Virus record (IMG/VR): IMGVR_UViG_3300017963_000425 | Span: 1-41,732 of that record | Source of the DNA: a virus | Strand: one strand, 5' to 3' | Length of the DNA: 41,732 nucleotides | Shown here: positions 6,110 through 40,978 of the stretch, piece by piece | How the letters are laid out: every line of letters starts with the position of its first letter | Position numbering within the stretch: position 1 is the stretch's first letter | Program-made: the position numbers and the translations under genes | Notes under the pieces: generated by a model | What the model was told of the DNA's origin: nothing | What the model saw: the letters and a program-made list of their open reading frames with translations, nothing else | Database searches by the model: none

Positions 6110-6228
6110 TATTCGTCCTCTGGAAAACCAAAACAAAACTTTCTTAATGCTTGATCCCTATCTTTCTTTTCCTGGAACTCACCAATCAAAATACCTTCAA
6201 CATTCCGTATCTTATGTGCTTTATACAT
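6109..6228 (-). CDS. 39-residue ORF lying between the two terminase domains
   Basis: A frame from ATG 6228 to TAA 6109. It overlaps the stop of the ATPase gene by 8 bases and shares one base with the nuclease start (TAATG). The product is charged and contains RNVEGILIGEFQEKKDR and a KFCFGFPEDE ending. It has its own GGGAGG site 7 bases upstream, so it looks like a genuine gene rather than debris. I do not recognise it. It could bridge or regulate the two terminase parts. Its frame differs from that of both neighbours. Confidence 0.55.
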   Translation of the reverse strand: MYKAHKIRNVEGILIGEFQEKKDRDQALRKFCFGFPEDE

Positions 6229-7033
6229 AAACTGCCTCCCTCGGTATCATTGGATAATCATCAATACAAGCACTAATTAATTCTTGTGTGAAATAACAAT
6301 CAATGTCTTCAATGAACTCACCGAATATCTCTGTCCGAACATAAACATGATCCTTGCCATAATCATCTACTTCTTTCTGCACTTCTTCTTTGCTAATGTA
6401 AGGATTATCGAATGTTGTAAAGTGAAAGCTTTCGTAACCATCAACACCTTTCCTGCCACGCTGGAAGTCATTATAGAAATTATTTTTTCCCCAAGGAGTA
6501 GAAGTCTGCCATATTGGTGCACCCTTATCAAAGGCCATTGGTCGTATCGCTTGCAATGCAGTCTCTTTCAGGAAACCACTCTCATCCCAGAACATTCTAT
6601 CATATGCCTCGCCACGCAAGGAATCTGGATTATCGCCAGAACCGAACTCTACAGAACAACCATTGATCCATTCAATCCTTGGATGCGGATGTTCAGTAAA
6701 CTTCTTAAGATCATTCATTGCAGGAACTGGTGCATTCCTTAGAATTTCTAATATCTTGTTATATACTATCCTGCTCTGTTTGTATGTTGGTGCTACAACG
6801 AATTGTCGTGGATAGAACTTGAAGGTGGCACCCCTTATTATCTCTCCAGCAATCATGTGTGTCTTCCCAGTTCTTCTGCCACAACATATGACTTTATGCT
6901 TAGAAATAGACTTAAGAATGCCTTGTTGTTTCTTGTGCGGTTCAATGCCAAGATAACCTACTTGGAAAAGGACAGGATCTTTCAACTCTTTCTCGAACTG
7001 TTTCGCATCAATTTTATTTTTCTCAATCGCCAT
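6221..7033 (-). CDS. Large terminase, ATPase domain (separate ORF)
   Basis: 270 residues. Walker A is CGRRTGKT (residues 51-58), Walker B is RMFWDE (residues 146-151) and the coupling motif is TSTPWG (177-182), all typical of the DNA-packaging motor. The protein stops after the ATPase lobe at IPREAVYV, where other large terminases (usually 400-550 residues in one chain) run on into the nuclease domain; the nuclease is encoded next, at 5513-6109. A GTAGAAG context precedes ATG 7033, which overlaps the previous gene's stop. Together with the nuclease it should package DNA through the portal. Confidence 0.85.
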   Translation of the reverse strand: MAIEKNKIDAKQFEKELKDPVLFQVGYLGIEPHKKQQGILKSISKHKVICCGRRTGKTHMIAGEIIRGATFKFYPRQFVVAPTYKQSRIVYNKILEILRNAPVPAMNDLKKFTEHPHPRIEWINGCSVEFGSGDNPDSLRGEAYDRMFWDESGFLKETALQAIRPMAFDKGAPIWQTSTPWGKNNFYNDFQRGRKGVDGYESFHFTTFDNPYISKEEVQKEVDDYGKDHVYVRTEIFGEFIEDIDCYFTQELISACIDDYPMIPREAVYV

Positions 7034-7317: not shown

Positions 7318-7426
7318 TCCGACCACCTTCCTTAAAATTATGTTTGAATACGAAGTCCATATAACATTCAAAACAAATTACCTTTCCAAGCTTAGTCTTC
7401 TTACAAAGTTCACATCTTTCAGCCAT
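7307..7426 (-). CDS. 39-residue zinc-knuckle protein
   Basis: A frame from ATG 7426 to TGA 7307, too short for routine gene finding. It has CELC at residues 5-8 and CFEC at 18-21, a compact zinc knuckle, and a perfect GGAGGCTGAAG leader identical to that of the gene at 7799. Stop and start overlap neighbours on both sides. Probably a genuine small zinc protein; role unknown. Confidence 0.5.
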   Translation of the reverse strand: MAERCELCKKTKLGKVICFECYMDFVFKHNFKEGGRNGN

Positions 7427-7799
7427 CTTCAGCCTCCTTCTTTTTTTTATGATATGCTCTCATATATGCTTTTATCTTATCCTTGTTTGCTTCTCTATAT
7501 GCTTTCTTCTGTGCTTTTATCTTATCTTTATTAGCTTCATAGTATGCTTTCTTCTGTGCTTTTATCTTATCTTTATTAGCTTCTCGATATGCTTTTATCT
7601 TATCCTTGTTTGCTTCTCTATATGCTTTATTATGTGCTTTTATCATATCCCTGTTTGCTTCTTTCCATGCTTTTATCTTATCCTTGTTTGCTTCATTATA
7701 TGCTTTTGACTTATGTTTTTTATTAAGAGGAGAATCTAATGGTTCTATGTCATCATAAAAGTCAGACCAACCCAATTCTATCAATTCTTTCTCAGACAT
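7419..7799 (-). CDS. Lys-rich tandem-repeat helical protein
   Basis: 126 residues. After a 30-residue acidic head (MSEKELIELGWSDFYDD), the rest is built from about seven copies of an 11-13 residue unit of the form AYREANKDKIKAQKK, strongly helical and basic. Related Lys/Asn/Glu repeats occur in many mobile elements, often near HNH nucleases, and may coat or bind nucleic acid; that role is not proven. A GGAGGCTGAAG leader precedes ATG 7799. The repeat copies are nearly identical at DNA level, so copy number may vary. It lies between terminase genes and a structured non-coding region. Confidence 0.65.
   Translation of the reverse strand: MSEKELIELGWSDFYDDIEPLDSPLNKKHKSKAYNEANKDKIKAWKEANRDMIKAHNKAYREANKDKIKAYREANKDKIKAQKKAYYEANKDKIKAQKKAYREANKDKIKAYMRAYHKKKKEAEDG
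7449..7719 (-). repeat. Coding tandem repeats of 30-39 bp
   Basis: Repeated units whose plus-strand form contains ATGCTTTTATCTTATC and TTTGCTTC, encoding the KDKIKA and EANK parts of the helical protein at 7419-7799. Spacings of about 30 and 39 bases alternate. This is a coding repeat, not a CRISPR array. Confidence 0.7.
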
Positions 7800-8392: not shown

Positions 8393-8806
8393 CTATACAT
8401 CTACAACTTCTTCATCCTTCTGCTTTTCCTTGAAAGCAGAAATCCTGTCAAGTATTTCAGTAGCAGTAACATTAATATTTATGTTTTCTTGTTTTATGTT
8501 TATCTTTTCACCGTGCTGTAATCTATGCCATTGTAGTAACGTCTGGCCTAATTGCGTCATCTGGTTCGCATTCTTACAATGTGCTTTTATCCCTTGTAAG
8601 TAAGTTCTGATATCTAACGCAGACGAGTTTGGATCTGTCATTATCTGATAAAGCTTCTTTGCACCTTCATTATCTAAACCCTTCTTTTTTAACTCTCGGA
8701 TTTGGGCTGCGAGCTTTTTTTTTGGACTAATGACCGCACCACCCTTTTTTCCCATCTCTCGAGCTCGTTTCGAGTTAATAGGGATTAAATTTTGCTCATT
8801 TGCCAT
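8393..8806 (-). CDS. Putative small terminase subunit
   Basis: 137 residues, mostly helical and basic. The N-terminus has SKRAREMGKKGG followed by Lys-rich helices, an arrangement often seen in small terminase-like DNA-binding proteins, then helices with SSALDIRTYLQGIKAH that could oligomerise. It precedes the terminase genes in the same direction, separated by the structured region and small genes, which supports a recognition subunit that marks viral DNA for packaging. A GGAAGG site precedes ATG 8806, which overlaps the stop of the radical SAM gene. No diagnostic residue exists for this family, so the call leans on context. Confidence 0.5.
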   Translation of the reverse strand: MANEQNLIPINSKRAREMGKKGGAVISPKKKLAAQIRELKKKGLDNEGAKKLYQIMTDPNSSALDIRTYLQGIKAHCKNANQMTQLGQTLLQWHRLQHGEKINIKQENININVTATEILDRISAFKEKQKDEEVVDV

Positions 8807-10211
8807 TATTAACCTTCCAATACGGTGTATTTTTATTATTCTTTCGCTTCAGACCAACATACTTAAATTGTATGTCGCCATCTGAAAGTTTCCCAATAGG
8901 CAAGATTGCGCCCTGGAAATATTGCAATGGACTTCTTTCTTTTCCGAGCTCCGTCCATGTTTGAAATAATACATCTGACCATTTCACCAGTCTGCGCTCA
9001 AAAGATGCTTTCGGTCCAACTCCTGGATTTATTAAATCATGTGCCAATGTTTTATATGCCCAGTCCGGAATCACGTCTTTGCTTGTAATAATCTTTCCGT
9101 TTTTTGCCTTTAACAAAGCTTCTGTTCCTTGCTCCCTTTGCCAATTTCCAAATACTTTATGTTCTGGTGAAATTGCACAACAGCAACCATAATCATTCAA
9201 TTGTTTCCAACACGGATCACTTACTCCAATGTTCCAACCTAATTCCTTACAATAATCATATATTGCGAACATTATTTGTTCCGTCCACGAATGATGAGGT
9301 CGCATACATGCTTGTATCTTACCAAATCGTTTATATATACCATTTAATGGAATTCCAGATATTTGTTCAATCTCTTTCCATTTCTTTTTCAAATCTTTTG
9401 TTTGCCTTCCAGGCACAAATCCAACTTCATAGCTAATATTGCGACATCCAGCTTTATGTGCCATATCAATAAGTTCCTTCCATGCATTAGGATGGTTCTT
9501 TGTTGAATCACTTATTCCTGGCAATATTGGTCTAAATCGAAGGCATGTCTCAACTCCGACTTCTTCAAGTCTGCGCATACATTCAATTCTTTCCGTTGCA
9601 GATGGTGCTCGTTTATCAATCTTAGCCAAAATTGCGTCATCACAAGTTATTATACTAAAATGCACTCTGAACAGATGCGGTTTATCTTTAACTGCATCTA
9701 TATACTCATCCAATAAGAAAAGATTTCCTTTCGTGCTTATTCTAACTGGCTGGTCATATTTTTTTACTATTTCTGCAAACTTTAAAAACCACCCTTGATT
9801 TCGTTCAATATTATCCAACGGATCTGTGATTGCTCCTAATTGTATTGGTGTAGGATATCCATTTTTTTTCTTATGATAATTCAATGCATATCTTATTTGT
9901 TCCCCTCTCTTGCCACCACCACCGCCCAGAATTCTGTCTATCATCGCCAGGCTTGTTTGTCCCACCTCTTTTGAAAAGTTTTCTCTGTGTTGTATCAAAT
10001 TGTTACTAAAGCAATACAAGCATCCGAACGAACAAACACTATGACTATCTATTGCAACTGGCAGAGCACAATCAAAACCATCGCTTGTATATCTTAACCC
10101 AGGATAGCTTCTAAGTTTTTTCTTTACAGGTTTACATACAGTTGCATCTTTACAATGTGCAGAGTATTTAAAACATTCTGCACAAACATTCTGTTTCTCG
10201 CATCTAAGCAT
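8796..10211 (-). CDS. Radical SAM enzyme, spore-photoproduct-lyase-like
   Basis: About 471 residues. CSFGCLYC (near 60-67) is the CX3CX2C motif that binds the [4Fe-4S] cluster activating S-adenosylmethionine. Around it are SPL-like segments: RISTKGNLFLL, HFSIITCDDAIL and CLRFRPILPGI. A Cys-rich N-terminus (CAEC, CKDATVC) and a CCC cluster near residue 340 could hold another metal cluster. SPL-like proteins repair or modify nucleic acid, but the exact substrate cannot be read. It follows a ParB-like gene with a 4- to 8-base overlap, so the two may act together. ATG 10211 was preferred to ATG 10226 because of the GAGG spacing. Confidence 0.75.
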   Translation of the reverse strand: MLRCEKQNVCAECFKYSAHCKDATVCKPVKKKLRSYPGLRYTSDGFDCALPVAIDSHSVCSFGCLYCFSNNLIQHRENFSKEVGQTSLAMIDRILGGGGGKRGEQIRYALNYHKKKNGYPTPIQLGAITDPLDNIERNQGWFLKFAEIVKKYDQPVRISTKGNLFLLDEYIDAVKDKPHLFRVHFSIITCDDAILAKIDKRAPSATERIECMRRLEEVGVETCLRFRPILPGISDSTKNHPNAWKELIDMAHKAGCRNISYEVGFVPGRQTKDLKKKWKEIEQISGIPLNGIYKRFGKIQACMRPHHSWTEQIMFAIYDYCKELGWNIGVSDPCWKQLNDYGCCCAISPEHKVFGNWQREQGTEALLKAKNGKIITSKDVIPDWAYKTLAHDLINPGVGPKASFERRLVKWSDVLFQTWTELGKERSPLQYFQGAILPIGKLSDGDIQFKYVGLKRKNNKNTPYWKVNNGK

Positions 10212-10809
10212 CCTTGATGACCTCATAAAACCATTCTGGATCCATCAGATTTTTTCCTGAAAGTTTAACTTTATTTTTGAGTTCGTTATATTTTTCTTCA
10301 TCATTGTAATATTCTACATAGAACCAGTTGCTATTCTTGGTAGTGCTTTTCTTTCCATCATCAAATTGTGACACAAGTTCAGTAAATTCTTCCTTGCTAT
10401 AATCATCAGCATATAAGTTCATATTTCCGACTTCCTCTTCTGAAAATCCCCACTCTCTCAGTTCTTCAGGATTAAACGCTTCTGAAAGTATAGCAAAATC
10501 AAATTCTCCTGTATTCTTGTTGCTTCTAATGTTATATTCTTCCACTTCTTTCTCTGTCAATTTTCTATTCGGCACCCTGACTTCAATTTCTTCTTCATCC
10601 CTTCCCAATATTCTCAATGCTTGTATTCTTTGATGGCCAGCCACAATAGTTCCATCCACATTTATTGCAGGCAATTCCACAAAATTAAATTTTTCTATTG
10701 ACTTTTTTAATTGTTGCATTTGTTCATCAGTAATCTTTCTTGGGTTGCTATTATACGATTTCAAGTTCTTAATTGCCCTCTTTTCCGTTCTCCATTCCAA
10801 TTCATCCAT
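10204..10809 (-). CDS. ParB/sulfiredoxin-fold nuclease-like protein
   Basis: 201 residues. Residues 10-95 are a ParB N-terminal domain: NSNPRKITDEQ, then the signature IVAGHQRIQALRILG, then a two-strand segment with EVRVPNRKL. The rest is acidic and helical with WFYVEYYN near residue 165. In viruses ParB-like domains without a CTP-dependent partition partner often act with DNA-modifying enzymes or as nucleases; here the partner gene is the radical SAM enzyme. No ParA gene is present, which argues against plasmid-like partition. GAGGTG lies 8 bases before ATG 10809. Confidence 0.75.
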   Translation of the reverse strand: MDELEWRTEKRAIKNLKSYNSNPRKITDEQMQQLKKSIEKFNFVELPAINVDGTIVAGHQRIQALRILGRDEEEIEVRVPNRKLTEKEVEEYNIRSNKNTGEFDFAILSEAFNPEELREWGFSEEEVGNMNLYADDYSKEEFTELVSQFDDGKKSTTKNSNWFYVEYYNDEEKYNELKNKVKLSGKNLMDPEWFYEVIKDA

Positions 10810-11595: not shown

Positions 11596-13305
11596 TTAAA
11601 GGCATATATCTTCTTCTGTGACTTCAATATCTTCTTCATCAATATTGGCACAGAAAGTTATATATCCTTTTTTTGGTGAATATAATGTAGCAAATTTGAA
11701 TCTGTCCATAATCCATTTATTAATTTGTTCATAATTTTCAGGTTTAAATTTGCTGAACAATTCTTTAGTTGATACGAGTTTATTTTCGCTGTTTTTATAT
11801 AGTTTGTTGAACTCCATTTGTATTTTACCACTTTTAAGTGGTGTGTTACTATTATGATTATCATATACTTCTTTTCTTACTTTTTCTTTATTTTTTGACA
11901 TTATTTCCTTATTTGACATTATTTCCATGTCCCCACACATCCCATGATTTGCATCAATTTTTTGGCCATTTTTATCTATTGATATGCGTTTGGAAAAAGA
12001 ATTAATAGGAATAATGTCAAGAAGTCCACTTTTTTCGTCTGTCTGTTCATCACCTATGTTATGCAGAACTGCACGCCTCCGCAAGTGCTCATCTATCTCA
12101 TCATAAGGGGGAAAATAAGTCATCATGTAAGCATCACGAATGCCATACTCTAATGGTTCCCTGCCCTTGTCTGTCGGTCTTTTGTTTACCAGCAATAAGT
12201 TGAGCTCCCCCAGTTTATCAAGGTTTCGCCTGACTCGCTTCTCCACCATCCTTGGTATCTCCACAGCGATCTCTGCCACCGTATATCTTCTGTTATCTCC
12301 ATTACTAAGCAAGTCCACGATTTCTTTTTGGTCCCTTGTCAATGGCAACAGACTATTCTTAAACAATAATGTTTTGAACGCTAACACCGCATTTTCATAA
12401 TCTACAGGTTCAGCTATCAGATAATTGTTCTCGTTCCGTTTCCTGCTATATTGGTGTAATGCACAGCTTGCTTTTATATAATCCAAGAAACGAGGAAATA
12501 ATGTTCTAATCATGATACTGTCCACAGGAAACAATTTTGCCACTTTTTCTGCGAACGGAATTGACACTTTTACTGGCATTAGTCTTGTTTGTGCCATGAC
12601 AAGCGAACTGTCTATTTTTTCTTCTTCTGCGGAGAACAGCTTGTCCGCATTCATCAATTTTTTAGCTTGATGGTTAATTATTGCGCTTGTTTGTTTATCT
12701 GATTCTGTCAAGTTCAATATATTAAATCTCCTCATAAGTTCAATTGTTGGTATGCCTTGCGCTGTTGTCACGAAGATGACAGGTTTCCCCACGACTTCTA
12801 TATCTACTGCTCTTTGTTTAATCACTATTGTTGCGCATGAACCAGAACTGCACATGACTTTAAACACATCAGAATTAATGACCGAGTTACTGAGGTCTTC
12901 TCCATAGAATATTTTACCGTCCCATGTCCATTCTGGATCAAACTTTTTATTTTTCCAATATGTGAATGCTGTTGGTGAGATTCTTGTTCTTTTAATCCAA
13001 TCTCTTGATGGTATAACTTCTAATGTTTTCGTAGTCACCCAATCTTTCCCTGCGCCAGACTCAGAATTTATCAATAGGTTATATGACGCTGGATTTGCAT
13101 TTTTCACCAATCTTCCTGATGCACATATAAACATGGTTATAATTGCTTCTTTTTCTCCGACAACCCTTTTTTGTGCTTCGTTTAGCATGAACTGCAAGAG
13201 TAGAGGAGATTTTAATATTGCAAAATATAGCTGATCTCCAATCTCATTCTCGCTCTTTAGCTTCCTCAGCTCGGTTTTCGCCGTTTCAGAATCCTCTTTT
13301 TTCAT
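11596..13305 (-). CDS. P-loop ATPase, putative replicative helicase
   Basis: About 569 residues. NSESGAGKD (near 80-88) is the Walker A loop; a segment with KIFYGEDLS is the likely Walker B strand. Around the P-loop the arrangement resembles MCM-like AAA+ helicases (GEKEAIITMFICAS before it, a MRRFNILNL segment after). A winged-helix segment near residue 345 (RRYTVAEIAVEIP, KRVRRNLDKLGEL) suggests DNA binding. The last 130 residues are low-complexity with a small folded end. No polymerase or primase is seen, so it probably unwinds DNA for the host replisome. ATG 13305 was chosen over upstream GTG codons. Confidence 0.65.
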   Translation of the reverse strand: MKKEDSETAKTELRKLKSENEIGDQLYFAILKSPLLLQFMLNEAQKRVVGEKEAIITMFICASGRLVKNANPASYNLLINSESGAGKDWVTTKTLEVIPSRDWIKRTRISPTAFTYWKNKKFDPEWTWDGKIFYGEDLSNSVINSDVFKVMCSSGSCATIVIKQRAVDIEVVGKPVIFVTTAQGIPTIELMRRFNILNLTESDKQTSAIINHQAKKLMNADKLFSAEEEKIDSSLVMAQTRLMPVKVSIPFAEKVAKLFPVDSIMIRTLFPRFLDYIKASCALHQYSRKRNENNYLIAEPVDYENAVLAFKTLLFKNSLLPLTRDQKEIVDLLSNGDNRRYTVAEIAVEIPRMVEKRVRRNLDKLGELNLLLVNKRPTDKGREPLEYGIRDAYMMTYFPPYDEIDEHLRRRAVLHNIGDEQTDEKSGLLDIIPINSFSKRISIDKNGQKIDANHGMCGDMEIMSNKEIMSKNKEKVRKEVYDNHNSNTPLKSGKIQMEFNKLYKNSENKLVSTKELFSKFKPENYEQINKWIMDRFKFATLYSPKKGYITFCANIDEEDIEVTEEDICL

Positions 13306-13346
13306 CACTTTTTCTGGCACCTTTTATTTTTTGTGCTTCTGGCAAA

Positions 13347-13613: not shown

Positions 13614-13623
13614 CTTTAAATAG
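13614..13623 (+). promoter_or_regulatory. TATA promoter for the amidoligase operon
   Basis: CTTTAAATAG preceded by AAT, a good archaeal TATA box. A start about 25 bases downstream near 13643 would leave a leader of about 44 bases, with GGAG 9 bases before ATG 13687. Confidence 0.6.
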
Positions 13624-13628
13624 TTGTC

Positions 13629-13654
13629 CCACTTAACTATTTAATATAAAGTGG
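13629..13654. promoter_or_regulatory. CCACTT-14-AAGTGG inverted repeat over the start point
   Basis: Perfect 6-base arms at 13629-13634 and 13649-13654 flank the predicted transcription start. A repressor bound here would block RNA polymerase. The spacer is AT-only apart from one C and contains a second TATA-like word. Confidence 0.45.
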
Positions 13655-13686: not shown

Positions 13687-14775
13687 ATGGCAAATAAAGC
13701 AATGAAAAATATTAAAATAGGCATTGAGGTCGAATGTGTTATTAATGCCGATAAAGTGAGCGTGAATGCTGGTGCTTACCATAGCGGAGTGCGACAGCCA
13801 GGCTTACCTTTATGGAAGGTTGAGCGTGATGGCAGTCTGCGGAGCAATGGCGAGTTCGAGAATGCGAGGACTTGCGAGTTCGTGAGCAATGTTATTAGAA
13901 GCAAGAATGGCTATAATAAGGCCTTAAAAAAATTGCAGGAATTTCTGTCTGCTGGAGATAGCTACGACATGTGCGAAGTTGTTGCATTTAATAATAGTTG
14001 TGGTAGCCATGTGCATTTTTCCATTAAAGACTTTAACTTTAAGGAGAATGTTGTTTTTAAAAAGTATAGGGGCATTAGAAAACACTTTTTAAAGCGAATT
14101 GATAAATCTAAAGTTTTAAGCCAGGAAACAAAAGAAGCTATTAAAAAGCAATATGTCAGAAACTACGCTAAACGGTTGACAAGAGCGAGGATGGAAAGAA
14201 GCGTAAGGCATACCGAATTTAATTTCTCGAGTGAGGACATTGGCACAGGCCTTGAATGGCGAAGCATAAACTTAAACAATGTGCAAGACTGGGAAGAATT
14301 CCATGAAGTGTTCAAAATAATTTATGAATGCCTTGAATTTTTATACAAGCTTTCAACCAAATACACGAGCACATATAACCAGCGTATCCCTGACGTGCAT
14401 GGCGACAGGAACAATGGTTATGCATTAAAGTTTAAGGTTGCATACGACAAGAAGAAAGATGAAAGTATTGTTTTAACCTTGACAGCAACCGACAAACTGC
14501 GCAACATATTAAAGCGTGCAATAATCGAAGAAACGACAAGGTTCACAATATTGGGCAACAAAAAATATACCAGATATAAAGTAAAGCGTTCCAGGGTTGA
14601 CGGAGCGACTGGCGTTTATTTTTGGGAGATGTTGTTCGCCAAAAGATTGGTGGACAATGGCACCTTTGAAGTTGTGCTACCGAACACAGCATATATTAAT
14701 AGGATGATGGACAACCTAAAAACAGCAAGCAAAAGGTTAATCTATGCTGAATATATAGATAGCTTGGGTGACTAA
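13687..14775 (+). CDS. Amidoligase (glutamine-synthetase-like COOH-NH2 ligase)
   Basis: 362 residues. The pattern fits the amidoligase family of the glutamine-synthetase-like fold: GIEVECV near the start, EFVS around 64, CGSHVHFSI (105-113) with two His, and LEWRSIN near residue 197 for ATP/metal binding. These enzymes join a carboxylate to an amine using ATP; relatives in viruses and mobile elements have been predicted to modify peptides or cell-wall material. The next gene is a class II glutamine amidotransferase three bases away, a pairing known for this family, which would supply ammonia. Substrate unknown. Confidence 0.75.
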   Translation: MANKAMKNIKIGIEVECVINADKVSVNAGAYHSGVRQPGLPLWKVERDGSLRSNGEFENARTCEFVSNVIRSKNGYNKALKKLQEFLSAGDSYDMCEVVAFNNSCGSHVHFSIKDFNFKENVVFKKYRGIRKHFLKRIDKSKVLSQETKEAIKKQYVRNYAKRLTRARMERSVRHTEFNFSSEDIGTGLEWRSINLNNVQDWEEFHEVFKIIYECLEFLYKLSTKYTSTYNQRIPDVHGDRNNGYALKFKVAYDKKKDESIVLTLTATDKLRNILKRAIIEETTRFTILGNKKYTRYKVKRSRVDGATGVYFWEMLFAKRLVDNGTFEVVLPNTAYINRMMDNLKTASKRLIYAEYIDSLGD

Positions 14776-14777
14776 AA

Positions 14778-15599
14778 ATGTGCAACATAAACATTTTAAT
14801 TAAGGACAAAAAGGATAGCTGGAACGTCGCCAGTTTCATGATGGCAGTGACAGCTTCCAGCTATTCTCGTAACCCTGACGGAGAAGGGCTATTTTGTGAT
14901 AGCGACAGCAAGAGTTTGTTTATTAAACAGAACCAGAAGATTAACTTGCTAAATTATGGCAAATTGTTCAAGGATGGTAAGTTTATAATAACACACCAGC
15001 GACTCAGCACAAGCGGATTCAACCAAAGATGGCACCATCCTTTTGTGAATAAAGACTTTGTATTCGTGCATAATGGCATAATAAATCGTTTCCTTGGAAA
15101 GAAAGGTAGCGATTCATATGGTTTTTTTATGGCGTTCACTGCATTATTCAACAAATTGCAGACTGGCACAAGGGAAGAGCGTATTGTGCAGAGCATTAAG
15201 CACTTATTGGATGGTCTTGATGACGGCAGTTATAGCATTGCCATTTATGACAGAAGGACGGAGAAATTATACTATTGCAAGAACAGCATGACAAATATTC
15301 ACTTTTTTAGATTTGCCAGGAAGTTGTACATAACAACCCTGCATAGTAATTCAGAATTTATCCCAATGTTAAGCAAGCAACACACAGAACTTGACATTAA
15401 GGACTACACTATTTACAGAGCAAACAAGAAACAAGGGGAACCAGTTTCAGTTTATAGCATTGCTAACATAAAAGAACCAGAACCACCAAAGGAGACAGCA
15501 AAGGAAGAGACAACAAAGCAAAAAAAGAAGACCAAAGACGAAGTGCAATGCTATGACTATAACCCTTTCGAGAAATATTCGTGTCAAGAAACATATTAA
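14778..15599 (+). CDS. Class II glutamine amidotransferase
   Basis: 273 residues. The second residue is Cys (MCNIN), the N-terminal nucleophile once Met is removed. Further family residues are HQRLSTSG (Arg75), FVFVHNGII (Asn99-Gly100) and SDSYGF (Asp near 108). It hydrolyses glutamine to release ammonia, presumably for the amidoligase encoded immediately upstream. Residues 1-215 form the Ntn-hydrolase fold; the last 55 are a charged linker rich in Glu and Lys. There is no synthetase domain of its own, which supports partnership with the neighbour. The start is fixed by the need for Cys at position 2. Confidence 0.83.
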   Translation: MCNINILIKDKKDSWNVASFMMAVTASSYSRNPDGEGLFCDSDSKSLFIKQNQKINLLNYGKLFKDGKFIITHQRLSTSGFNQRWHHPFVNKDFVFVHNGIINRFLGKKGSDSYGFFMAFTALFNKLQTGTREERIVQSIKHLLDGLDDGSYSIAIYDRRTEKLYYCKNSMTNIHFFRFARKLYITTLHSNSEFIPMLSKQHTELDIKDYTIYRANKKQGEPVSVYSIANIKEPEPPKETAKEETTKQKKKTKDEVQCYDYNPFEKYSCQETY

Positions 15600-15625: not shown

Positions 15626-15793
15626 ATGGAAACTGACGAAAATTTCACTTGTGCGTTTTGCGGTTGCAAAGACTGTCCGCAATGGATGTATGGTGGCCAG
15701 TCGGAAGATGGCGAACCCATCTGCGACCATTGTGCAGACAAGACAAGAGAATATTACCGAGACGTGCAAGAACACCACAAGGAGGAGGACTAA
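15626..15793 (+). CDS. 55-residue zinc-finger protein
   Basis: Starts at ATG 15626 after AGGAGGCAG. Contains CAFCGCKDC near residue 9 and CDHC near residue 36, a probable zinc-binding knuckle, followed by an acidic and His-rich tail. An upstream in-frame Met lacks a ribosome site. No function can be assigned. Confidence 0.6.
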   Translation: METDENFTCAFCGCKDCPQWMYGGQSEDGEPICDHCADKTREYYRDVQEHHKEED

Positions 15794-15794
15794 A

Positions 15795-15986
15795 ATGAGA
15801 AAATTTATAGTATTGACGACTAATTGTCTTAATCAAGGAGAAGTTTATATCTCTGAAGTTATGGCAGAAAGTTTAGAAGATGCTTACGAAAGAGTTAATG
15901 ATGAAGGTTGCCACCAATATGACAACCATGCATTATTTACTTGTAAGCAATGGAACAAATTAAAAAAACAAATAAACAAAAAATAG
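15795..15986 (+). CDS. 63-residue hypothetical protein
   Basis: ATG 15795 follows an AGGAGGAGG site one base after the previous stop. The product begins with a beta strand (MRKFIVLTTNC) and continues with an EVMAESLEDAYERV helix and a basic tail. It resembles short one-domain alpha/beta phage proteins, but I do not recognise it. Confidence 0.6.
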   Translation: MRKFIVLTTNCLNQGEVYISEVMAESLEDAYERVNDEGCHQYDNHALFTCKQWNKLKKQINKK

Positions 15987-15999
15987 GAGGCGAATGTAA

Positions 16000-16209
16000 A
16001 TGGTAAGACTACAACTAACAAGGAAACAAGCAAAATATCTGGCGGAGGTAATGGGCAACTGCGTGATTGCGACTATTGAAGACTTAGAGCATCATGGCGA
16101 AGGAGAATCAACTTCAATGCTAAATTTAAAGGAAGCAAAGAACCTGTTGCAAAAATTAGAGAAATTGAAAGGGGCGCAGATAGGATTGCAAGCAACTGCG
16201 GAGGGATAA
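16000..16209 (+). CDS. 69-residue helical hypothetical protein
   Basis: Preceded by ATAGGAGGCGA. Two predicted helices (residues 5-28 and 43-57) with LTRKQAKYLAEVM at the start suggest a small helix-turn-helix-like or coiled-coil protein. No known family recognised. Two bases separate it from the next gene. Confidence 0.55.
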   Translation: MVRLQLTRKQAKYLAEVMGNCVIATIEDLEHHGEGESTSMLNLKEAKNLLQKLEKLKGAQIGLQATAEG

Positions 16210-16211
16210 AA

Positions 16212-16559
16212 ATGGCAAAAGATGACTTAGAGCTAAAAGACTTAAGACAATATTATGGCACGGAGAAGTATTATAAACTGCCAATTTGTAAGTCTGTCTA
16301 TACTGACGGAATCAAATACATTATGGAGAATGGTTATAGTTGGTTCGTCACTGATAGCTTAATAGTGGCAGAATCAAAGTATAAGGACGCAGAGTTCATA
16401 GTAATTAAATTAAAAGTGCGAGAAAGTGGCGCTTATGTAACTCTTGAAGATGGTAATGGCAAGATGCTCTACTATCAAGAATATGATTATACTGACGCAA
16501 AACGCGATTTAGTTCTTTACTGGACAGATGGCGTATTAATGCTTCAGGGAGAGTATTGA
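16212..16559 (+). CDS. DUF6876-like protein
   Basis: 115 residues. The pattern matches DUF6876, a small family of mobile-element proteins: LRQYYGTEKYYKLP at the N-terminus, YTDGIKYIMENGYSWFV, LEDGNGKMLYYQ and a YTDAKRDLVLYW ending with GVLMLQGEY. Proteins of this family are about this length and have no known biochemical function. It sits inside a run of micro-genes behind the amidoligase pair. Confidence 0.7.
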   Translation: MAKDDLELKDLRQYYGTEKYYKLPICKSVYTDGIKYIMENGYSWFVTDSLIVAESKYKDAEFIVIKLKVRESGAYVTLEDGNGKMLYYQEYDYTDAKRDLVLYWTDGVLMLQGEY

Positions 16560-16561
16560 AG

Positions 16562-16699
16562 ATGGATTTTGGAGATTCGGTTGATGAGCGTGATGCTTGG
16601 TATGAGTTTGTCGAGTTCATCTCTGGCACTCAGCCAGGCACAGAGAAGACTATAACATTTAAATGCGGAGAAGTTTACCGCATCCGGAGGGAAAAATGA
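16562..16699 (+). CDS. 45-residue hypothetical protein
   Basis: A frame from ATG 16562, two bases after the DUF6876 gene, with AGGGAGAG upstream. Acidic N-terminal half, basic C-terminus (YRIRREK). It overlaps the next start (ATGA). No family recognised; supported by ribosome site and coupling only. Confidence 0.45.
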   Translation: MDFGDSVDERDAWYEFVEFISGTQPGTEKTITFKCGEVYRIRREK

Positions 16700-16836
16700 C
16701 TTATGAGGGAGAGATGGCAATAGCAACTGAGTTAATGAATGTATCGAAGCAGTTGAACCAAATAAAATTTTTAATGAATGCAATTTGGCTCGAAACGAAG
16801 AAAGAACGGAGGCTCAATAAAGATGATAGAAAGTAA
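16696..16836 (+). CDS. 46-residue helical hypothetical protein
   Basis: ATG 16696 overlaps the previous stop and follows CGGAGG by about five bases. A single amphipathic helix (ELMNVSKQLNQIKF) and a basic tail suggest a small coiled-coil oligomer. Function unknown. Confidence 0.45.
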   Translation: MTYEGEMAIATELMNVSKQLNQIKFLMNAIWLETKKERRLNKDDRK

Positions 16837-17038
16837 AGGTATGACTACATATCGTGGTCTTCGGAATAATGCAAAGTTATGGAAAGCATTGTGTATTCGT
16901 TTAGTCAACCGTGACCTTACAAAAGAAGAATATTTGAACTGGTTGCAGTTGTGTGCGATACGAGTGCCTACTGACGCAGAGGTTGATGAACAAATAGACA
17001 AAGCGAACAGATTGCTCGATGCATCTGTGGAGGAATGA
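16823..17038 (+). CDS. 71-residue hypothetical protein
   Basis: Starts at ATG 16823, 11 bases after GGAGG and inside the preceding gene. Mostly helical, with LWKALCIRLVNRDLTKEEYL in the middle and an acidic C-terminus. No family recognised. A later Met (16841) is an alternative start. Confidence 0.5.
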   Translation: MIESKGMTTYRGLRNNAKLWKALCIRLVNRDLTKEEYLNWLQLCAIRVPTDAEVDEQIDKANRLLDASVEE

Positions 17039-17040
17039 AG

Positions 17041-17175
17041 ATGGCTTTTAGCAAAAAGAAGTTTGAAACAGAGATAGAGTTATTGCAAGATGAGAAGGAT
17101 AATATTATCCTTTTTGGTGTATTTGGCATGCTCTATAATTGGTACAGACGAAGGAAGCTTGAATATACTGCTTAA
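17041..17175 (+). CDS. 44-residue hypothetical protein
   Basis: ATG 17041 follows GGAGGAATGAAG. It has a charged N-terminal helix followed by a hydrophobic segment (NIILFGVFGMLYNWY) and a basic end, so it may touch the membrane. It ends 20 bases before the next gene's start. Confidence 0.45.
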   Translation: MAFSKKKFETEIELLQDEKDNIILFGVFGMLYNWYRRRKLEYTA

Positions 17176-17195
17176 TGTATCGATGGAGGTTGAAA

Positions 17196-17372
17196 ATGAC
17201 TGAAGAAAAGAAGCAAATCGTGGAGAAGGTCAATACTGACAGTATAGAATTGACCAAGAATAGCAAAGGTTTCAACTGGGTGATCAAAGCTTACGGTGAT
17301 GACCATCGTCAGATTGAGCGAAAGCTTAGACATTTAAAAGCTGTTGCTGAAGGTCTTGCTGGAACCGAATAA
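17196..17372 (+). CDS. 58-residue conserved-type small phage protein
   Basis: ATG 17196 lies after GGAGGTTGA. The product has the layout of a common small phage protein: an acidic start, NSKGFNWVIKAYGDD strand and an EIERKL-type helix. It is the last gene before the terminator at 17389-17451. Function unknown. Confidence 0.55.
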   Translation: MTEEKKQIVEKVNTDSIELTKNSKGFNWVIKAYGDDHRQIERKLRHLKAVAEGLAGTE

Positions 17373-17388
17373 TGTTTCCTCAGGCGAA

Positions 17389-17451
17389 GGCAAGAGGCCA
17401 ATTGCACAAAGGGTTTCATTTCCCTTTACTCCTACCTCTTGCCTTTTTTTT
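17389..17451 (+). terminator. Terminator with nested hairpins and T8 run
   Basis: Outer arms GGCAAGAGG (17389-17397) and CCTCTTGCC (17435-17443) enclose an inner hairpin AAAGGG/CCCTTT (17408-17427) and are followed by eight T. It ends the amidoligase and micro-gene operon. Confidence 0.8.
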
Positions 17452-18626: not shown

Positions 18627-19874
18627 ATAGTAGAACAAAAACATATATACTGGCTTAGTGACAGTCCATTCTCAAACACAGGATTCAGCACAGTTTCTCT
18701 GAACGTGCTGAACGGACTTGATAAACGTGGTTGGAAATGTAGTTTCCAGTCGCACAATTATATCGGCCAGACCTTGCCGAAGGGAAGTGTAAGATTGGCG
18801 GATGGAACACCATTCAATTTCGACCTGTATGGTCACGGAAGAGAACAATACGCAAGAGACCTTCTTCAGCCACGAGTTCGAGAACTAAGACCGCAAATCT
18901 TCGGCGTTCTTCTTGATACTTTCATGTTATATCCTTGGTATCTGCAACAAAATTATGCGCCAGCGAAAACTATGTTTTATTTTCCAAGTGATGGTGGTGC
19001 ATGTCTTCCGCAAGGGTGCGAAGCGATACTACAGAAGTGCGACCTACCGATAGCAATGTCTAAGTTCGGCCAGAAACAAGTCAAGGAAATACACGGAATC
19101 AATGCAGAGTATATTCCGCATGCAGTAGATCCAAAGATATACTATCCTTTAGAACCGGAAGAAAAACAAAAATTGAAAGCAAAATTAGGCTTGTCCAACA
19201 AATTCGTGATCGGGGTTATGGGCAGAAATCAAGGCAGAAAGATGCATGATAGAATCTTTAAGATGTTTGCCAAGTTCGCTAAAATGCACCAAGACGTTAT
19301 TCTTTTCTGCCACTTTGACCCCAACGATTTGGCTGCGGTCTTTGATGTGAAACGCTTGATGCAAAGATTGAACGTGGCAAACAGAGTTGTCTTCTCTGGT
19401 GTGAACTACTTTCGTGGCTTCACTTACGAACAAATGAACGAAGTCTATAATGTGATGGATGTTTATCTATCAACAACAAGCGGAGAAGGTTTCGGTATCG
19501 GCACGATTGAAGCAATGGCTTGCAAGATTCCTGTCATCAATATCGCATACACTACTACTGAAGAATTAGTCATTGCCAATAATGCAGGAGAAAGCATCAA
19601 GCTTGTAGGTTGCGAAGAGATGTCATTATTGTCAACACCGAGCCAAGAGTTCGATTACAAGATGATGAACGGAACTATCACTGGCAGTTGGTGTGTTGAG
19701 CGCGGCATCTGCGACCTTGACGATGGTGTCAAAAAGCTCGAGAAGTTATATCAAGACGCAAAGTTAAGGGAAGATTACGGCAGGAACGGCAGACGTGCAG
19801 TGCTAAGAGACTATACTTGGGACGTTGTGAATGACGAGTTCGACAGACTGCTCACAAGATTGGTGAAATCATGA
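18627..19874 (+). CDS. GT-B glycosyltransferase (GT4-like), apparent AUA start
   Basis: About 415 residues if started at ATA 18627. The conserved N-terminal segment HIYWLSDSPFSNTGFS is read in frame upstream of the first GTG (18705), and GAGGTGA lies six bases before ATA, so translation seems to start there. The C-terminal half has the nucleotide-sugar site: MGRNQGRK, YLSTTSGEGFGIGTIEAMAC and a YTWDVV helix. It is a retaining-type GT-B enzyme that would add a sugar to a glycan or lipid acceptor. First gene of the glycan island. The sugar cannot be predicted. Confidence 0.8.
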   Translation: MVEQKHIYWLSDSPFSNTGFSTVSLNVLNGLDKRGWKCSFQSHNYIGQTLPKGSVRLADGTPFNFDLYGHGREQYARDLLQPRVRELRPQIFGVLLDTFMLYPWYLQQNYAPAKTMFYFPSDGGACLPQGCEAILQKCDLPIAMSKFGQKQVKEIHGINAEYIPHAVDPKIYYPLEPEEKQKLKAKLGLSNKFVIGVMGRNQGRKMHDRIFKMFAKFAKMHQDVILFCHFDPNDLAAVFDVKRLMQRLNVANRVVFSGVNYFRGFTYEQMNEVYNVMDVYLSTTSGEGFGIGTIEAMACKIPVINIAYTTTEELVIANNAGESIKLVGCEEMSLLSTPSQEFDYKMMNGTITGSWCVERGICDLDDGVKKLEKLYQDAKLREDYGRNGRRAVLRDYTWDVVNDEFDRLLTRLVKS

Positions 19875-20053
19875 AAGCAAAATATTTTATTAAAAAAGAA
19901 TATGCTGTTAATATACAAAAAGGAGATATTATTGAAGTTTCATTAGTGGAACATGATAAGTATGGTATTGATAGGCATATTTTTGTTGAAGGAGAAGTCA
20001 GTTGTATCCGCAGAGATCCAAAAGGAGAGTTCGCAGTAGTTTACATAAAATGA
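19871..20053 (+). CDS. 60-residue beta-rich hypothetical protein
   Basis: ATG 19871 overlaps the glycosyltransferase stop (ATGA). The sequence looks like an all-beta SH3 or OB-like small domain (IQKGDIIEVSLVEHDKYG, GEFAVVYIK). It has no enzymatic motif. It is coupled to the B12-binding gene downstream, again by ATGA. Confidence 0.55.
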   Translation: MKAKYFIKKEYAVNIQKGDIIEVSLVEHDKYGIDRHIFVEGEVSCIRRDPKGEFAVVYIK

Positions 20054-20445
20054 AGCGTGTTTATTTGATAAGTCCCAGCGAACAAGGTTTGCTTGCGAAT
20101 GCTGGTGACAGACCACCATTAGGAATATTATACATTGCTTCGTATCTTCGAGAAAATGGCGTCTCTGTTCGTGTCGCTGATATGAACCATATGAAGATTT
20201 CGGAGTTAGCTGATGAACTGATGCACTACTATCCGACCTATATTGGTATCAGTTTCAGCACTCCATTATACGAACGAGCAGTCCAGTTATTACGTTTTTG
20301 TCGTGCGTTTGTGCCGAGAGCAAAGTTTGTCGCAGGAGGTCCGCACCCTTCCGCTTCGCCAGAAAGTTGCGATGAGTTTGATTATGTAATTGTGGGGGAA
20401 GGAGAAGAAGCAATGTTGGAGTTAGTTACAGATGAAAGTTATTAA
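20050..20445 (+). CDS. B12-binding domain protein of a radical SAM pair
   Basis: 131 residues forming the Rossmann-like cobalamin-binding domain that normally begins B12-dependent radical SAM enzymes: RPPLGILYIASYLRENG, YPTYIGISFSTP, VAGGPHPSASPE and DYVIVGEGEEAMLELV. Lacking the DxHxxG His, as is usual for this class, it would bind B12 base-off without a His ligand. The chain stops where the radical SAM domain should follow; that domain is the next, overlapping gene. It would assemble with it or be joined by frameshifting. Such enzymes methylate or rearrange unactivated carbons. Confidence 0.75.
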   Translation: MKRVYLISPSEQGLLANAGDRPPLGILYIASYLRENGVSVRVADMNHMKISELADELMHYYPTYIGISFSTPLYERAVQLLRFCRAFVPRAKFVAGGPHPSASPESCDEFDYVIVGEGEEAMLELVTDESY

Positions 20446-21268
20446 AGCGAAACTGATAGAGAATATTAACGAACTTCCGTTGCCAGCGAGAGATTTGCTC
20501 GACATGAAGAATTATAATTTGATGCAAGATGGAAAACGAACCGCAACGCTCATCACGAGTAGAGGATGCACAGGCGTTTGTGCGTATTGCTCTCGAAAAT
20601 CACTTGGCAACAAATTCAGAGCTAACACACCTCGCAAAGTCATTCAAGAAATCAAGAGGCTTATGGAATATGGTTATGAAAGTTTTTACTTTCTTGACGA
20701 CATGTTCACTTACGATAATGAAAGGGCTGAAGAGATTGCAGACCTTATTATCAAAGAAGGGTTGAATATCACTTTCAGGATCACAACCAGAGCAGACACA
20801 GTAGATTATGACTTGCTCAAGAAGTTGAAATCTGCAGGTCTTGTAATGTTGAGCATAGGTATCGAACACGCAGACAACGAAGTTTTAAAAAAGTCACTCA
20901 AGAATATGACAATCGAACAGAACGAACAGGTCATAGATTGGTGCAACGAACTTTGCATTGAAGTGAAAGGTTTCTTCATCCTGAACTTGCCAGGCGCAAC
21001 AGAAAAAACCATCTGCAAGACTTTAGATTTTGCGAAACGAAAAGGTCTTAAATATGCAGACTTTTATATGCTGACTGCGTTTCCTGGCAGTAGTTTGTGG
21101 AATTTCCCTGACAAGTTCGGTATGAGATTGCTTGATGATAATTTTCATTTTTTCCAGGCATGGATGGGCAAGTATCCGCAGATCAATATTGATAGCAAAG
21201 AACTGCCAAAGGAAAAGATTATAAAGTTATGGGGAGAGGTAATGCAAGAATGGAACAAGAAAAAATAA
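20432..21268 (+). CDS. Radical SAM domain of a B12-type enzyme (separate ORF)
   Basis: 278 residues. SRGCTGVCAYCSR holds CX3CX2C (Cys 46, 50 and 53) for the [4Fe-4S] cluster, followed by the TIM-barrel segments ESFYFLDDMFTYD, FRITTRAD, MLSIGIEHAD and FFILNLPGATE. The N-terminal ELPLPARDLLD is the linker usually found just after a B12 domain. It overlaps the B12 gene by 14 bases in another frame, with GGAG 10 bases before ATG 20432. It probably methylates a glycan, lipid or peptide; a natural split and a frameshift are both possible. Confidence 0.82.
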   Translation: MKVIKAKLIENINELPLPARDLLDMKNYNLMQDGKRTATLITSRGCTGVCAYCSRKSLGNKFRANTPRKVIQEIKRLMEYGYESFYFLDDMFTYDNERAEEIADLIIKEGLNITFRITTRADTVDYDLLKKLKSAGLVMLSIGIEHADNEVLKKSLKNMTIEQNEQVIDWCNELCIEVKGFFILNLPGATEKTICKTLDFAKRKGLKYADFYMLTAFPGSSLWNFPDKFGMRLLDDNFHFFQAWMGKYPQINIDSKELPKEKIIKLWGEVMQEWNKKK

Positions 21269-21477
21269 AAAAATATATAAGAATTATTGAAGATATGGAA
21301 AGTGAACTATATTTATTAGAATGGACATTAAACAGAACTCCTGAAGAAGAAATAAAATTTGTAAAATTATTACAAGAATTTAGGGATATATATGGAATAA
21401 ATTATGGTCAAGTAGTAAAACCTTCGGATATTTTAAGAATTGTAGGTGCGTTTTTAACATGGTTGGAAAAAAATTAA
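21250..21477 (+). CDS. 75-residue helical hypothetical protein
   Basis: ATG 21250 lies inside the end of the radical SAM gene after GAGAGG. Long acidic helix (IIEDMESELYLLEWTL) followed by KFVKLLQEFRDIYG and a hydrophobic C-terminus overlapping the next start. AT-rich codon use differs visibly from the flanking enzyme genes. No function can be assigned. Confidence 0.55.
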   Translation: MEQEKIKKYIRIIEDMESELYLLEWTLNRTPEEEIKFVKLLQEFRDIYGINYGQVVKPSDILRIVGAFLTWLEKN

Positions 21478-22745
21478 TCATTGCATTGATAGGGCAGGAC
21501 GTGGAGAACGTCATCCGTCTCTGCTTAGATAGTATTAAATCTGTAGCGGACTATATAGTCTTTGTTGATGGTGGCAGTAAAGATGATACAATGTATATCC
21601 TTCAGCAAGAATATCCGCAAGTTCATATTATAGAACAAAGATACGAGCATGAGAATAAAGGGGCGAACGGAAAAGCGAGGAATGTCTATCTTGAATATGT
21701 GAAGAAACATTTCGATGGCGAATGGTGTCTTGTCTTGGATCCTGACGAATGCGTTGACCAGCCAGACATCCTGCGTAAGTTCTTAGATGATATTGAGAAA
21801 AGAGAAGATATAAAAGGAAGACAATTGATGTTCAATCCGAGAATGGAACACTTCATTTATTCATTAAGATATATTGATGCTACACAAGAGAAACATTTCT
21901 GTCCGTGCCGATTATTCACTATACACAACCATCTCTATTATGAAGAAGTCGAACATCCTGTTCTTCATTCTCACATTCCTATTCTAAACGTCAATCTTGA
22001 AGGTTTCACTATCTTTCATTTTGCGTATGCGAAAGCAATGTTCGAACTTAAGAAGAAGTATCTCAACCATCTCGAGAAATCTAACATACACGAACCAGAG
22101 TTCTTAGACTGGTGGTATCATGCACATCTGCTTGGCGAGTATCCAATAAAGGCAGTAAATATTGATGCTCTGCCGAAAGTCATCAAAGAACATTTCATAA
22201 TCAACGACGACTACCTCTATTTCAGAAACAGAGGTATGATTGAAGAAAAGCATTGGATGGATGCTCACCATTGGAATAAATTTTTCCAGCCAAAGAAAGC
22301 ACTCGTCTGTGGTTGTGGGATGGGACAACGAGTTTATACATTAAGAGCAATGGGTGTGCAAGCGTTCGGTTTCGATATTAACAAGTATGCGATAGAAAGA
22401 ACTAACTGCAAGGATATTGACAAGTATATTAAGGTTGATGACATTACCAAGATTGAACATTTCCAGGATGATCATTTCGACCTTGTTGTATGCTATGACG
22501 TTCTTGAACATTTAGATCCTGATAGCTTATCTATAGCTCTTGAGAAAATCTATAAAGTTGGGAAGGAAAACTTTTTGTTTTCTATCCCCTTTATAGGCGA
22601 TCCTAACCTTGACGCAGATCCTACTCATAAGATAAAACAAACAAAACAATGGTGGATAGAACAGATACAGAAGGCAGGTTTCCAGTTAAGATTGCCACCG
22701 AAGCATTTCTTATACAAACACCAAATAATATTAGCGAAAAAATGA
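21459..22745 (+). CDS. GT-A glycosyltransferase fused to SAM methyltransferase
   Basis: 428 residues. Residues 1-230 are a family-2 glycosyltransferase: DYIVFVDGGSKDDTM and the metal-binding DPDECVDQPD motif. Residues 275-428 are a class I methyltransferase: CGCGMGQRVYTL (SAM loop), GFDINKYAIERT, and FDLVVCYDVLEHLDP, then SIPF. One polypeptide could thus add a sugar and methylate the same or a neighbouring sugar, typical of surface glycan capping. It overlaps the preceding small gene by 19 bases. The acceptor is unknown. Confidence 0.83.
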   Translation: MVGKKLIIALIGQDVENVIRLCLDSIKSVADYIVFVDGGSKDDTMYILQQEYPQVHIIEQRYEHENKGANGKARNVYLEYVKKHFDGEWCLVLDPDECVDQPDILRKFLDDIEKREDIKGRQLMFNPRMEHFIYSLRYIDATQEKHFCPCRLFTIHNHLYYEEVEHPVLHSHIPILNVNLEGFTIFHFAYAKAMFELKKKYLNHLEKSNIHEPEFLDWWYHAHLLGEYPIKAVNIDALPKVIKEHFIINDDYLYFRNRGMIEEKHWMDAHHWNKFFQPKKALVCGCGMGQRVYTLRAMGVQAFGFDINKYAIERTNCKDIDKYIKVDDITKIEHFQDDHFDLVVCYDVLEHLDPDSLSIALEKIYKVGKENFLFSIPFIGDPNLDADPTHKIKQTKQWWIEQIQKAGFQLRLPPKHFLYKHQIILAKK

Positions 22746-22891
22746 TAAAAAAAATAGCGAGGGAAGTTGAAGAATGGGCAGGAACATTATTATTAGTAGT
22801 TTTTGCATTACTTGTAATTGTAATATTTTTTCCAGTTGCATTCTTCATGCAGAAAAATGATATTAGGAGAACAACAAATCGGAAGGCCTGA
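22742..22891 (+). CDS. 49-residue single-pass membrane peptide
   Basis: ATG 22742 overlaps the previous stop (ATGA). A short charged N-terminus precedes one transmembrane helix (residues about 14-34, LLLVVFALLVIVIFF) and a basic tail. It may anchor the glycan enzymes at the membrane. It overlaps the start of the next glycosyltransferase by 35 bases. Confidence 0.5.
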   Translation: MIKKIAREVEEWAGTLLLVVFALLVIVIFFPVAFFMQKNDIRRTTNRKA

Positions 22892-23519
22892 AAAGTTTAA
22901 AGTGGCAATCTTAGTTCCAACAGTGCCAGGGAACGAAAATACATTGATGGATTGTCTTTGTCATATCATAACCAATAGTAAAAATTATGATTATGAGATC
23001 ATAGTTTATAAGAATAATTTTGAAGGATATACTCCTGCGATAAATAAATTAATAACACAAGCTTTTTCAATACCTGATATACAAGCTGTCTTCATGCTGA
23101 ACGATGACATCAATATCCAAGACGAAGAGTGGCTCAGTAAGTTTATAGAAGCAATAAAAGAAAATACAGGAGTTGTCTGTCCGTTATCTCATTGGAGAAA
23201 TGAACATTGTAGTATGGGTTTTTGTCTAATGCCTCGTCCAGTTCTTGAACAAATGAAAGCAGAAGAAGGCAACTATTTCGATGAAAGGTTTAAGATATTG
23301 AACTGGGATGATGTGGATATGAGTGTTCGTCTGCAAGAAGCTGGTTATGAACTTGTAAAGATTAATGACCATAATAAACCAAATAAACCAATGTTTCATC
23401 ACAAAGGTAGTCTCTCCACTAAAATGTACACTCCTGCGATGGTGGAAGAGATGAAACAAAATAAATTTAGGTTCAAAGAAAAATGGAAAGGTACTCGTTG
23501 GGAGAAAAAATGGAACTGA
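22857..23519 (+). CDS. GT-A glycosyltransferase (family 2)
   Basis: About 220 residues. FKVAILVPTVPGNEN is the usual first strand; VFMLNDDINIQDEEW contains the DxD-like metal site; NWDDVDMSVRLQEAGYELV is the conserved acidic and ED/WDD region. An HHKGSLS segment closes the site. The enzyme would transfer a sugar from a nucleotide sugar with inversion. The exact start is uncertain because no strong ribosome site is seen; a GTG near residue 16 is possible. Confidence 0.78.
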   Translation: MILGEQQIGRPEKFKVAILVPTVPGNENTLMDCLCHIITNSKNYDYEIIVYKNNFEGYTPAINKLITQAFSIPDIQAVFMLNDDINIQDEEWLSKFIEAIKENTGVVCPLSHWRNEHCSMGFCLMPRPVLEQMKAEEGNYFDERFKILNWDDVDMSVRLQEAGYELVKINDHNKPNKPMFHHKGSLSTKMYTPAMVEEMKQNKFRFKEKWKGTRWEKKWN

Positions 23520-24768: not shown

Positions 24769-24770
24769 AA

Positions 24771-25808: not shown

Positions 25809-26001
25809 GGGAACTTTAGAAGAAATTAGAACAAAGTATGTAATTATAGAAACGAACGAAAAGAAGATAATCTTAATTCCTTTGGATAGCATTTGTTCTA
25901 TGGAATTATTAGATTTTGAAAATACTACTTGGGTGAAAACACAAGATAAAAATCTTGACGAAAACATAGAAGATACAAAAGTAAAGGTGATTGTAAGATG
26001 A
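25780..26001 (+). CDS. 73-residue beta-rich protein, possibly Sm-like
   Basis: ATG 25780 follows GAGAGGTG inside the end of the SPASM gene and the stop overlaps the next start (ATGA). YEGTLEEIRTKYVIIET, followed by KIILIPLDSICSMELLDF, resembles the strand order of an Sm/LSm or Hfq-type barrel, but this is weak. It could equally be a small adaptor. No catalytic motif. Confidence 0.5.
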   Translation: MTDSDKTFYEGTLEEIRTKYVIIETNEKKIILIPLDSICSMELLDFENTTWVKTQDKNLDENIEDTKVKVIVR

Positions 26002-40970: not shown

Positions 40971-40978
40971 TTTACACC

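Follow-up and report, generated by a model that had tools for sequence, protein, structure and literature searches.

What might a virus amidate, and in what kind of host, with an amidoligase and a class II glutamine amidotransferase (GATase) placed side by side at the head of an operon? The question arises from a 41,732-base IMG/VR virus record without a host label, the whole of which is called the window here. Genes for the two enzymes have been reported in LUZ24-like phages, OM43 phages and a Planctomycetes phage (PMC3890496, PMC3517423, PMC10580990, PMC10945688). Murein has been guessed as the substrate of the pair since 2009 (Iyer et al. 2009, as related in PMC5498523 and PMC10580990), and the larger bacteriophage cassette has been interpreted as a means of altering peptidoglycan to block superinfection (PMC5498523, PMC10580990). 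No tests of a murein substrate for the phage amidoligase-GATase pair were found in this cited literature.

The window holds a tailed-virus gene set that includes a split large terminase, an HK97-type capsid, a tape measure protein and a portal with a fused Mu F-like domain. The features at the locus are as follows.

11596..13320, minus strand: P-loop replication-type protein, divergently transcribed (P-loop pattern scan, identity to DPANN MAGs)
13615..13622, plus strand: putative archaeal TATA motif TTTAAATA, a presumed promoter element (sequence)
13616..13625 and 13635..13644, plus strand: perfect 10-bp inverted repeat overlapping the TATA motif, a possible operator (repeat search)
13687..14775, plus strand: GS-superfamily amidoligase (Amidoligase_2), 362 aa (PF12224, jackknife HMM, fold, conserved residues)
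14778..15599, plus strand: class II (Ntn, N-terminal Cys) glutamine amidotransferase, 273 aa (jackknife HMM, fold, conserved residues)
15626..15793, plus strand: tiny ORF 1, 55 aa, two CxxC-type pairs (GGAGG upstream; no Pfam match)
15795..15986, plus strand: tiny ORF 2, 63 aa (no Pfam match)
16000..16209, plus strand: tiny ORF 3, 69 aa (no Pfam match)
16212..16559, plus strand: tiny ORF 4, DUF6876 protein, 115 aa (PF21781, 79 bits)
16562..16699, plus strand: tiny ORF 5, 45 aa (sequence)
16696..16836, plus strand: tiny ORF 6, 46 aa (sequence)
16823..17038, plus strand: tiny ORF 7, 71 aa (sequence)
17041..17175, plus strand: tiny ORF 8, 44 aa (sequence)
17196..17372, plus strand: tiny ORF 9, 58 aa, last gene of the operon (sequence)
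17386..17446, plus strand: terminator-like stem of 12 pairs followed by T8 (fold, -25 kcal/mol)

The first-pass annotation had named the leading genes as an amidoligase and a class II GATase, and profile searches and structural models bear out both identifications. The amidoligase reading frame scores 33.1 bits against PF12224 (cut-off 22) and is recovered with E=2e-17 by an HMM built from other viruses, window sequences left out. With the jackknife HMMs for the two families, only these two frames match among the window's 446 six-frame ORFs. Residues invariant among relatives of the amidoligase are all present (E14, E16, D48, S50, E64, C105, H108, H110, N179, E190, R192), as is the motif series ExE, DGS, E, C-G-x-H-x-H, R...N and ExR, with R174 also in place, leaving the acidic, His and Arg core of the ligase active site intact. 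K142 and H175 stand where relatives have a near-invariant Arg and Tyr, and the HSGT stretch after the ExR motif is missing. The structural model is of moderate quality (mean pLDDT 65.5), with the catalytic core at about residues 1-223 and a C-terminal stretch of ~140 aa outside the structural matches. The best 50 VIA rows listed are GS/GCS-superfamily chains, the top Z of 9.0 extending over 178 residues; GS scores 9.0, PafA (Pup ligase) 8.6, Dop 7.9 and YbdK 7.2. Foldseek E-values are weak (best 2.7e-3), and the protein is assigned a predicted GS/GCS fold because the VIA rows agree.

The GATase scores 25.9 bits against PF13522 (GATase_6), just below the cut-off of 27, and reaches E=4e-20 with a better-fitting viral HMM built without the window. 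Its invariant residues are likewise complete (C2, G37, H73, R75, T78, H87, P88, H98, N99, G100, D112, G150), the motifs comprising Cys2, HxR..T (H73-x-R75, T78), HP, HNG and D112. The conserved residues of both enzymes presumably bind metal, ATP and glutamine, as judged from knowledge of glutamine synthetase and GlmS. An Ntn glutaminase fold is predicted by the GATase model (pLDDT 71.6, with a low-confidence Lys/Glu-rich tail at 241-273), which resembles PurF (VIA Z 19.6), EgtC (18.4) and GlmS (18.2) and, by Foldseek, the GlmS glutaminase (E 1.6e-10). The cores of both enzymes persist at only ~15-24% identity to relatives. Searching PDB by sequence gave no meaningful relative of either, and neither matched the PADLOC defence models.

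The two genes are the first of a plus-strand operon divergent from the P-loop gene. They had been described as three bases apart; the tight adjacency holds, and the true gap is two bases, the stop codon ending at 14775 and the ATG beginning at 14778 on the same strand, three being the start offset. The operator-like repeat noted earlier is present as a perfect inverted repeat (TTAAATAGTT, 9 nt spacer, AACTATTTAA, 13616-13644) that overlaps TTTAAATA. A comparable repeat arises in ~1.2% of dinucleotide shuffles, a frequency that makes an operator role no more than suggestive. Exactly nine tiny ORFs follow the GATase from 15626 to 17372, in agreement with the earlier count, nearly all with a GGAGG-type ribosome-binding site. 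The stem at 17386-17446 (folding z=-3.68, no shuffle equally stable) is predicted to be a strong terminator closing the operon.

Additional information about the pair comes from other viruses. Scanning IMG/VR contigs with one amidoligase DNA motif gave 82 stretches, and a GATase profile run on LUZ24 and the motif-found loci located 41 class II GATase genes near amidoligases. Thirty-five of these lie directly 3' of the amidoligase with a gap of at most 50 bp (one overlapping), and two more follow an upstream amidoligase at ~140 bp. In the remaining four the amidoligase is downstream; these genes lie near a locus edge, where an upstream gene would be cut off. Many of the 41 loci are close relatives of the L017 type, with at least 14 distinct amidoligase lineages (<65% identity) included. 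Amidoligase and GATase distance matrices are correlated (Mantel r 0.85 for 21 pairs, 0.82 without the L017 type, p=1e-4); shared virus ancestry feeds this correlation, which therefore speaks for co-inheritance rather than for contact. No amidoligase-GATase fusion was found among the ORFs looked at.

The pair is accordingly not new as a kind, being known from LUZ24 and many virus contigs. New is the form seen here, strongly diverged and pared down to the two enzymes, in a virus that probably infects an archaeon; it has neither the γ-glutamyl cyclotransferase nor the second ligase that LUZ24 carries. Normalised distances between the window pair and other viral pairs are at least 0.81. The window proteins had no tblastn match in 50,697 phage records, searching viral contigs and annotated phages with single sequences brought up no true relatives, and a degenerate GATase DNA pattern with exact spacing had no match. 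Four records (L002-L005) considered as relatives were rejected, as they align only with 31 residues of an unrelated phage protein.

The closest annotated likeness is gp18-gp19 of the Pseudomonas phage LUZ24 (NC_010325), with the same two families in the same order and on the same strand. Its two genes are separated by 11 bp and, as in the window, belong to a rightward cluster that precedes the replication genes. LUZ24 differs in having a COOH-NH2_lig (PF14395), a gamma-glutamyl cyclotransferase (GGACT) and an annotated RimK-like ligase, the first two missing from the window. PF08443 (ATP-grasp RimK-like) has no match in the window, nor in LUZ24, although gp21 is annotated as RimK-like. The LUZ24 GATase is also longer (510 aa versus 273 aa), and tblastn does not link the window proteins to LUZ24. 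L017-type IMG/VR viruses share the direct amidoligase-GATase order at a gap of 11-24 bp and, unlike the window, continue with a small gene and a second amidoligase, several records also having a gamma-glutamyl cyclotransferase. In this lineage (L017:484-6137) the amidoligases flank one GATase, the second has an N-terminal Cys-rich region, and a PD-(D/E)XK nuclease-like gene follows.

Taken as a system, the two genes are best read as a two-subunit glutamine-dependent amide ligase that acts early in infection on a host carboxylate, a reading held with moderate confidence. The GATase, with Cys2 as nucleophile after removal of Met, would hydrolyse glutamine to release ammonia, and the GS-fold amidoligase would use ATP/Mg to activate a carboxylate by turning it into an acyl phosphate. 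Reaction of the acyl phosphate with the released ammonia, or with an amine, would give an amide. The target would most likely be a host carboxylate, modified so that the infected cell is remodelled. MurT-GatD of Staphylococcus aureus (PMC3267633) works alike, as a two-gene complex of an amide-forming ligase and a glutaminase, and differs in its Mur-ligase fold, its class I GATase and its murein substrate, without homology to the window pair. By phmmer, the nearest amidoligase to that of the window is in L018, near which a class I GATase-fold/peptidase C26 gene (L018:7633-8250) occupies the place of the class II GATase of other viruses. This partner is consistent with the ligase being functionally tied to a protein that hydrolyses glutamine or gamma-glutamyl compounds, whether as amide ligase or in the opposing roles considered next.

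EgtA and EgtC belong to ergothioneine synthesis, in which EgtC cuts a gamma-glutamyl bond. They resemble the window pair in uniting a GS-superfamily ligase and a class II-fold Ntn enzyme in one pathway; the pathway context and the bond cleavage by EgtC differ from the role proposed for the GATase. By analogy, the amidoligase could attach an amine or peptide through a gamma-glutamyl (isopeptide) bond, and the class II enzyme, instead of supplying ammonia, could be an EgtC-like gamma-glutamyl amidase that removes or remodels this bond. The EgtC fold score is as good as that of GlmS (Z 18.4 versus 18.2), so that fold comparison does not separate the two models, and the peptidase C26-type partner in L018, the gamma-glutamyl cyclotransferase genes of LUZ24 and L017-type records and the listing of the phage GATase with the cassette's degradation genes in PMC5498523 would all fit. 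Subunits of a ligase and a glutaminase would, however, account at least equally well for an order and tight spacing conserved in so many viruses without strict need of a further enzyme, and the window is without a gamma-glutamyl cyclotransferase. Such opposed activities are thus judged unlikely, while the amide ligase remains the preferred reading.

The substrate of an amide ligase would depend on the host, for which the divergent P-loop gene is the main marker. Its P-loop DNA pattern matched two genomes out of ~85,000, both DPANN MAGs, with protein identities of 48% over 336 aa to a Micrarchaeota genome (L089) and 41% to a Woesearchaeota genome (L090). In profile searches of the DPANN phyla, strong relatives were present in 6 of 371 Woesearchaeota genomes (query genome included), and the one strong match among 295 Micrarchaeota genomes was the query genome itself. 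Three more IMG/VR virus contigs (L092-L094) have relatives of this gene and no amidoligase; the pair is thus not established as core to that virus group, though the records may be fragments. Among listed phage matches, the best for the portal are weak ones to Halorubrum viruses at only ~20-22% identity; the listed terminase matches are mixed, mostly bacteriophages. A DPANN archaeal host is likely, mainly from the one gene, while the portal and terminase matches are mixed. The archaeal host suspected in the first-pass annotation gains support in that the P-loop pattern matched only Micrarchaeota and Woesearchaeota. No credible PF12224 match was found in the 666 DPANN genomes (371 and 295) by a search that does detect the window, and the activity thus looks imported by the virus. 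The lone DPANN hit (L091, 20 bits, in a pilus-assembly locus) was set aside as chance.

If the host were bacterial, the pair could be an ordinary phage peptidoglycan-modification cassette that alters murein peptide side chains against superinfection, as published for phiEco32-, LUZ24- and RIO-1-like phages (PMC5498523, PMC10580990). The podovirus cassette (phiEco32, RIO-1, PSA-HP1, PaP3, tf; PMC5498523) shares the amidoligase and the glutamine amidotransferase with the window, and the predominance of bacteriophages among the listed terminase matches would agree. The podovirus cassette is, however, a multi-gene one of bacterial viruses under a murein hypothesis, whereas the window has a two-gene core and a probable archaeal host; with neither gamma-glutamyl cyclotransferase nor COOH-NH2_lig, the pair does not, by its gene content, amount to a full cassette of that kind. 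The neighbour gene, DPANN-specific in the pattern scan, and the Halorubrum virus matches of the portal also argue against this explanation, which is considered quite improbable. To our knowledge murein is absent from archaea, so in a DPANN host it could not be the target; the earlier caution that a wall substrate may not apply was a fair one.

With the amide ligase reading and a DPANN host, the leading substrate candidate would be a uronic acid of a surface glycan or another non-murein carboxylate. This guess, of low confidence, is made because a block at 18627-28225 (plus strand) encodes glycosyltransferases, a polysaccharide pyruvyl transferase, methyltransferases and radical-SAM proteins. 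The block is on the same strand as the pair, from which the terminator and another small operon separate it; as a separate operon behind a terminator, its tie to the pair is positional only. That a DPANN virus amidates a non-murein surface carboxylate (e.g. glycan uronic acids) alongside its own glycan-remodelling genes, altering the cell surface, is a tentative proposal. If it were true, the murein explanation of the widespread phage pair would be wrong or incomplete. The minimal two-gene version strips away the other cassette enzymes and, if the host assignment holds, murein as well, and so offers a small, expressible means to find the real chemistry and makes the substrate question testable outside murein.

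The block also includes a B12-binding and radical-SAM pair and a SPASM radical-SAM protein. Its first glycosyltransferase (18627-19874, plus strand) seems to use the ATA at 18627 as its start codon, downstream of a GAGGTGAT site; the frame from there encodes a typical N-terminus (VEQKHIYWLSDSPFSNTGF...), and ATG, GTG and TTG are all absent from it before 18705.

The tiny genes share the operon with the pair, and the protein-tagging ligase PafA is among the best fold matches of the amidoligase (Z 8.6). The pair could therefore be a small system for modifying peptides, which amidates or tags one of the nine tiny operon proteins or some other protein of the virus. Tiny proteins as substrates had been suggested before, and the suggestion is unsupported, with evidence neither for nor against it. 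A search for the pair together with DUF6876 elsewhere, also suggested then, turned up the pair (LUZ24, many virus contigs) and not its supposed companion: DUF6876 is present in the window and in 0 of 25 other amidoligase- or pair-bearing records, and was rejected as a shared third partner. No tiny protein was found to recur with the pair, and viral early operons commonly hold runs of tiny genes. Peptide modification of this sort is very unlikely. We know of no link between the GS-fold amidoligase family and bases. Involvement of the pair in base modification of viral DNA, or in the modification of a soluble metabolite, which would draw on the class II GATase domains of phage deazaguanine DNA-modification enzymes (GAT-QueC, PMC6893657) and on several radical-SAM genes in the window, is similarly remote, as no QueC, QueD, QueE or FolE homologue is found among the window proteins scanned against Pfam, NCBIfam and PHROGs.

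Other parts of the window show further peculiarities. The large terminase (5513-7033, minus strand) is in two pieces: 6221-7033 encodes the ATPase half and 5513-6136 the nuclease half. Both use one frame, interrupted between them by a short stretch that contains several in-frame stops. Within the replication/packaging arm, a radical-SAM protein (8796-10226, minus strand) has a weak relationship to the PA0069 family. A protein at 10204-10809 (minus strand) has a weak ParB-family match and also scores 49.7 bits with a PADLOC model for type II methyltransferases. A protein at 7419-7799 (minus strand) is built of EANKDKIKA-type repeats, corresponding to tandem repeats of 33/45/78 bases. Among the tail and late genes, a transglutaminase-like protein (28713-29375, minus strand) is under the Pfam cut-off. 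About three copies of a 69-base tandem repeat (40491-40691, minus strand) lie inside a secreted-looking protein at 40287-40982.
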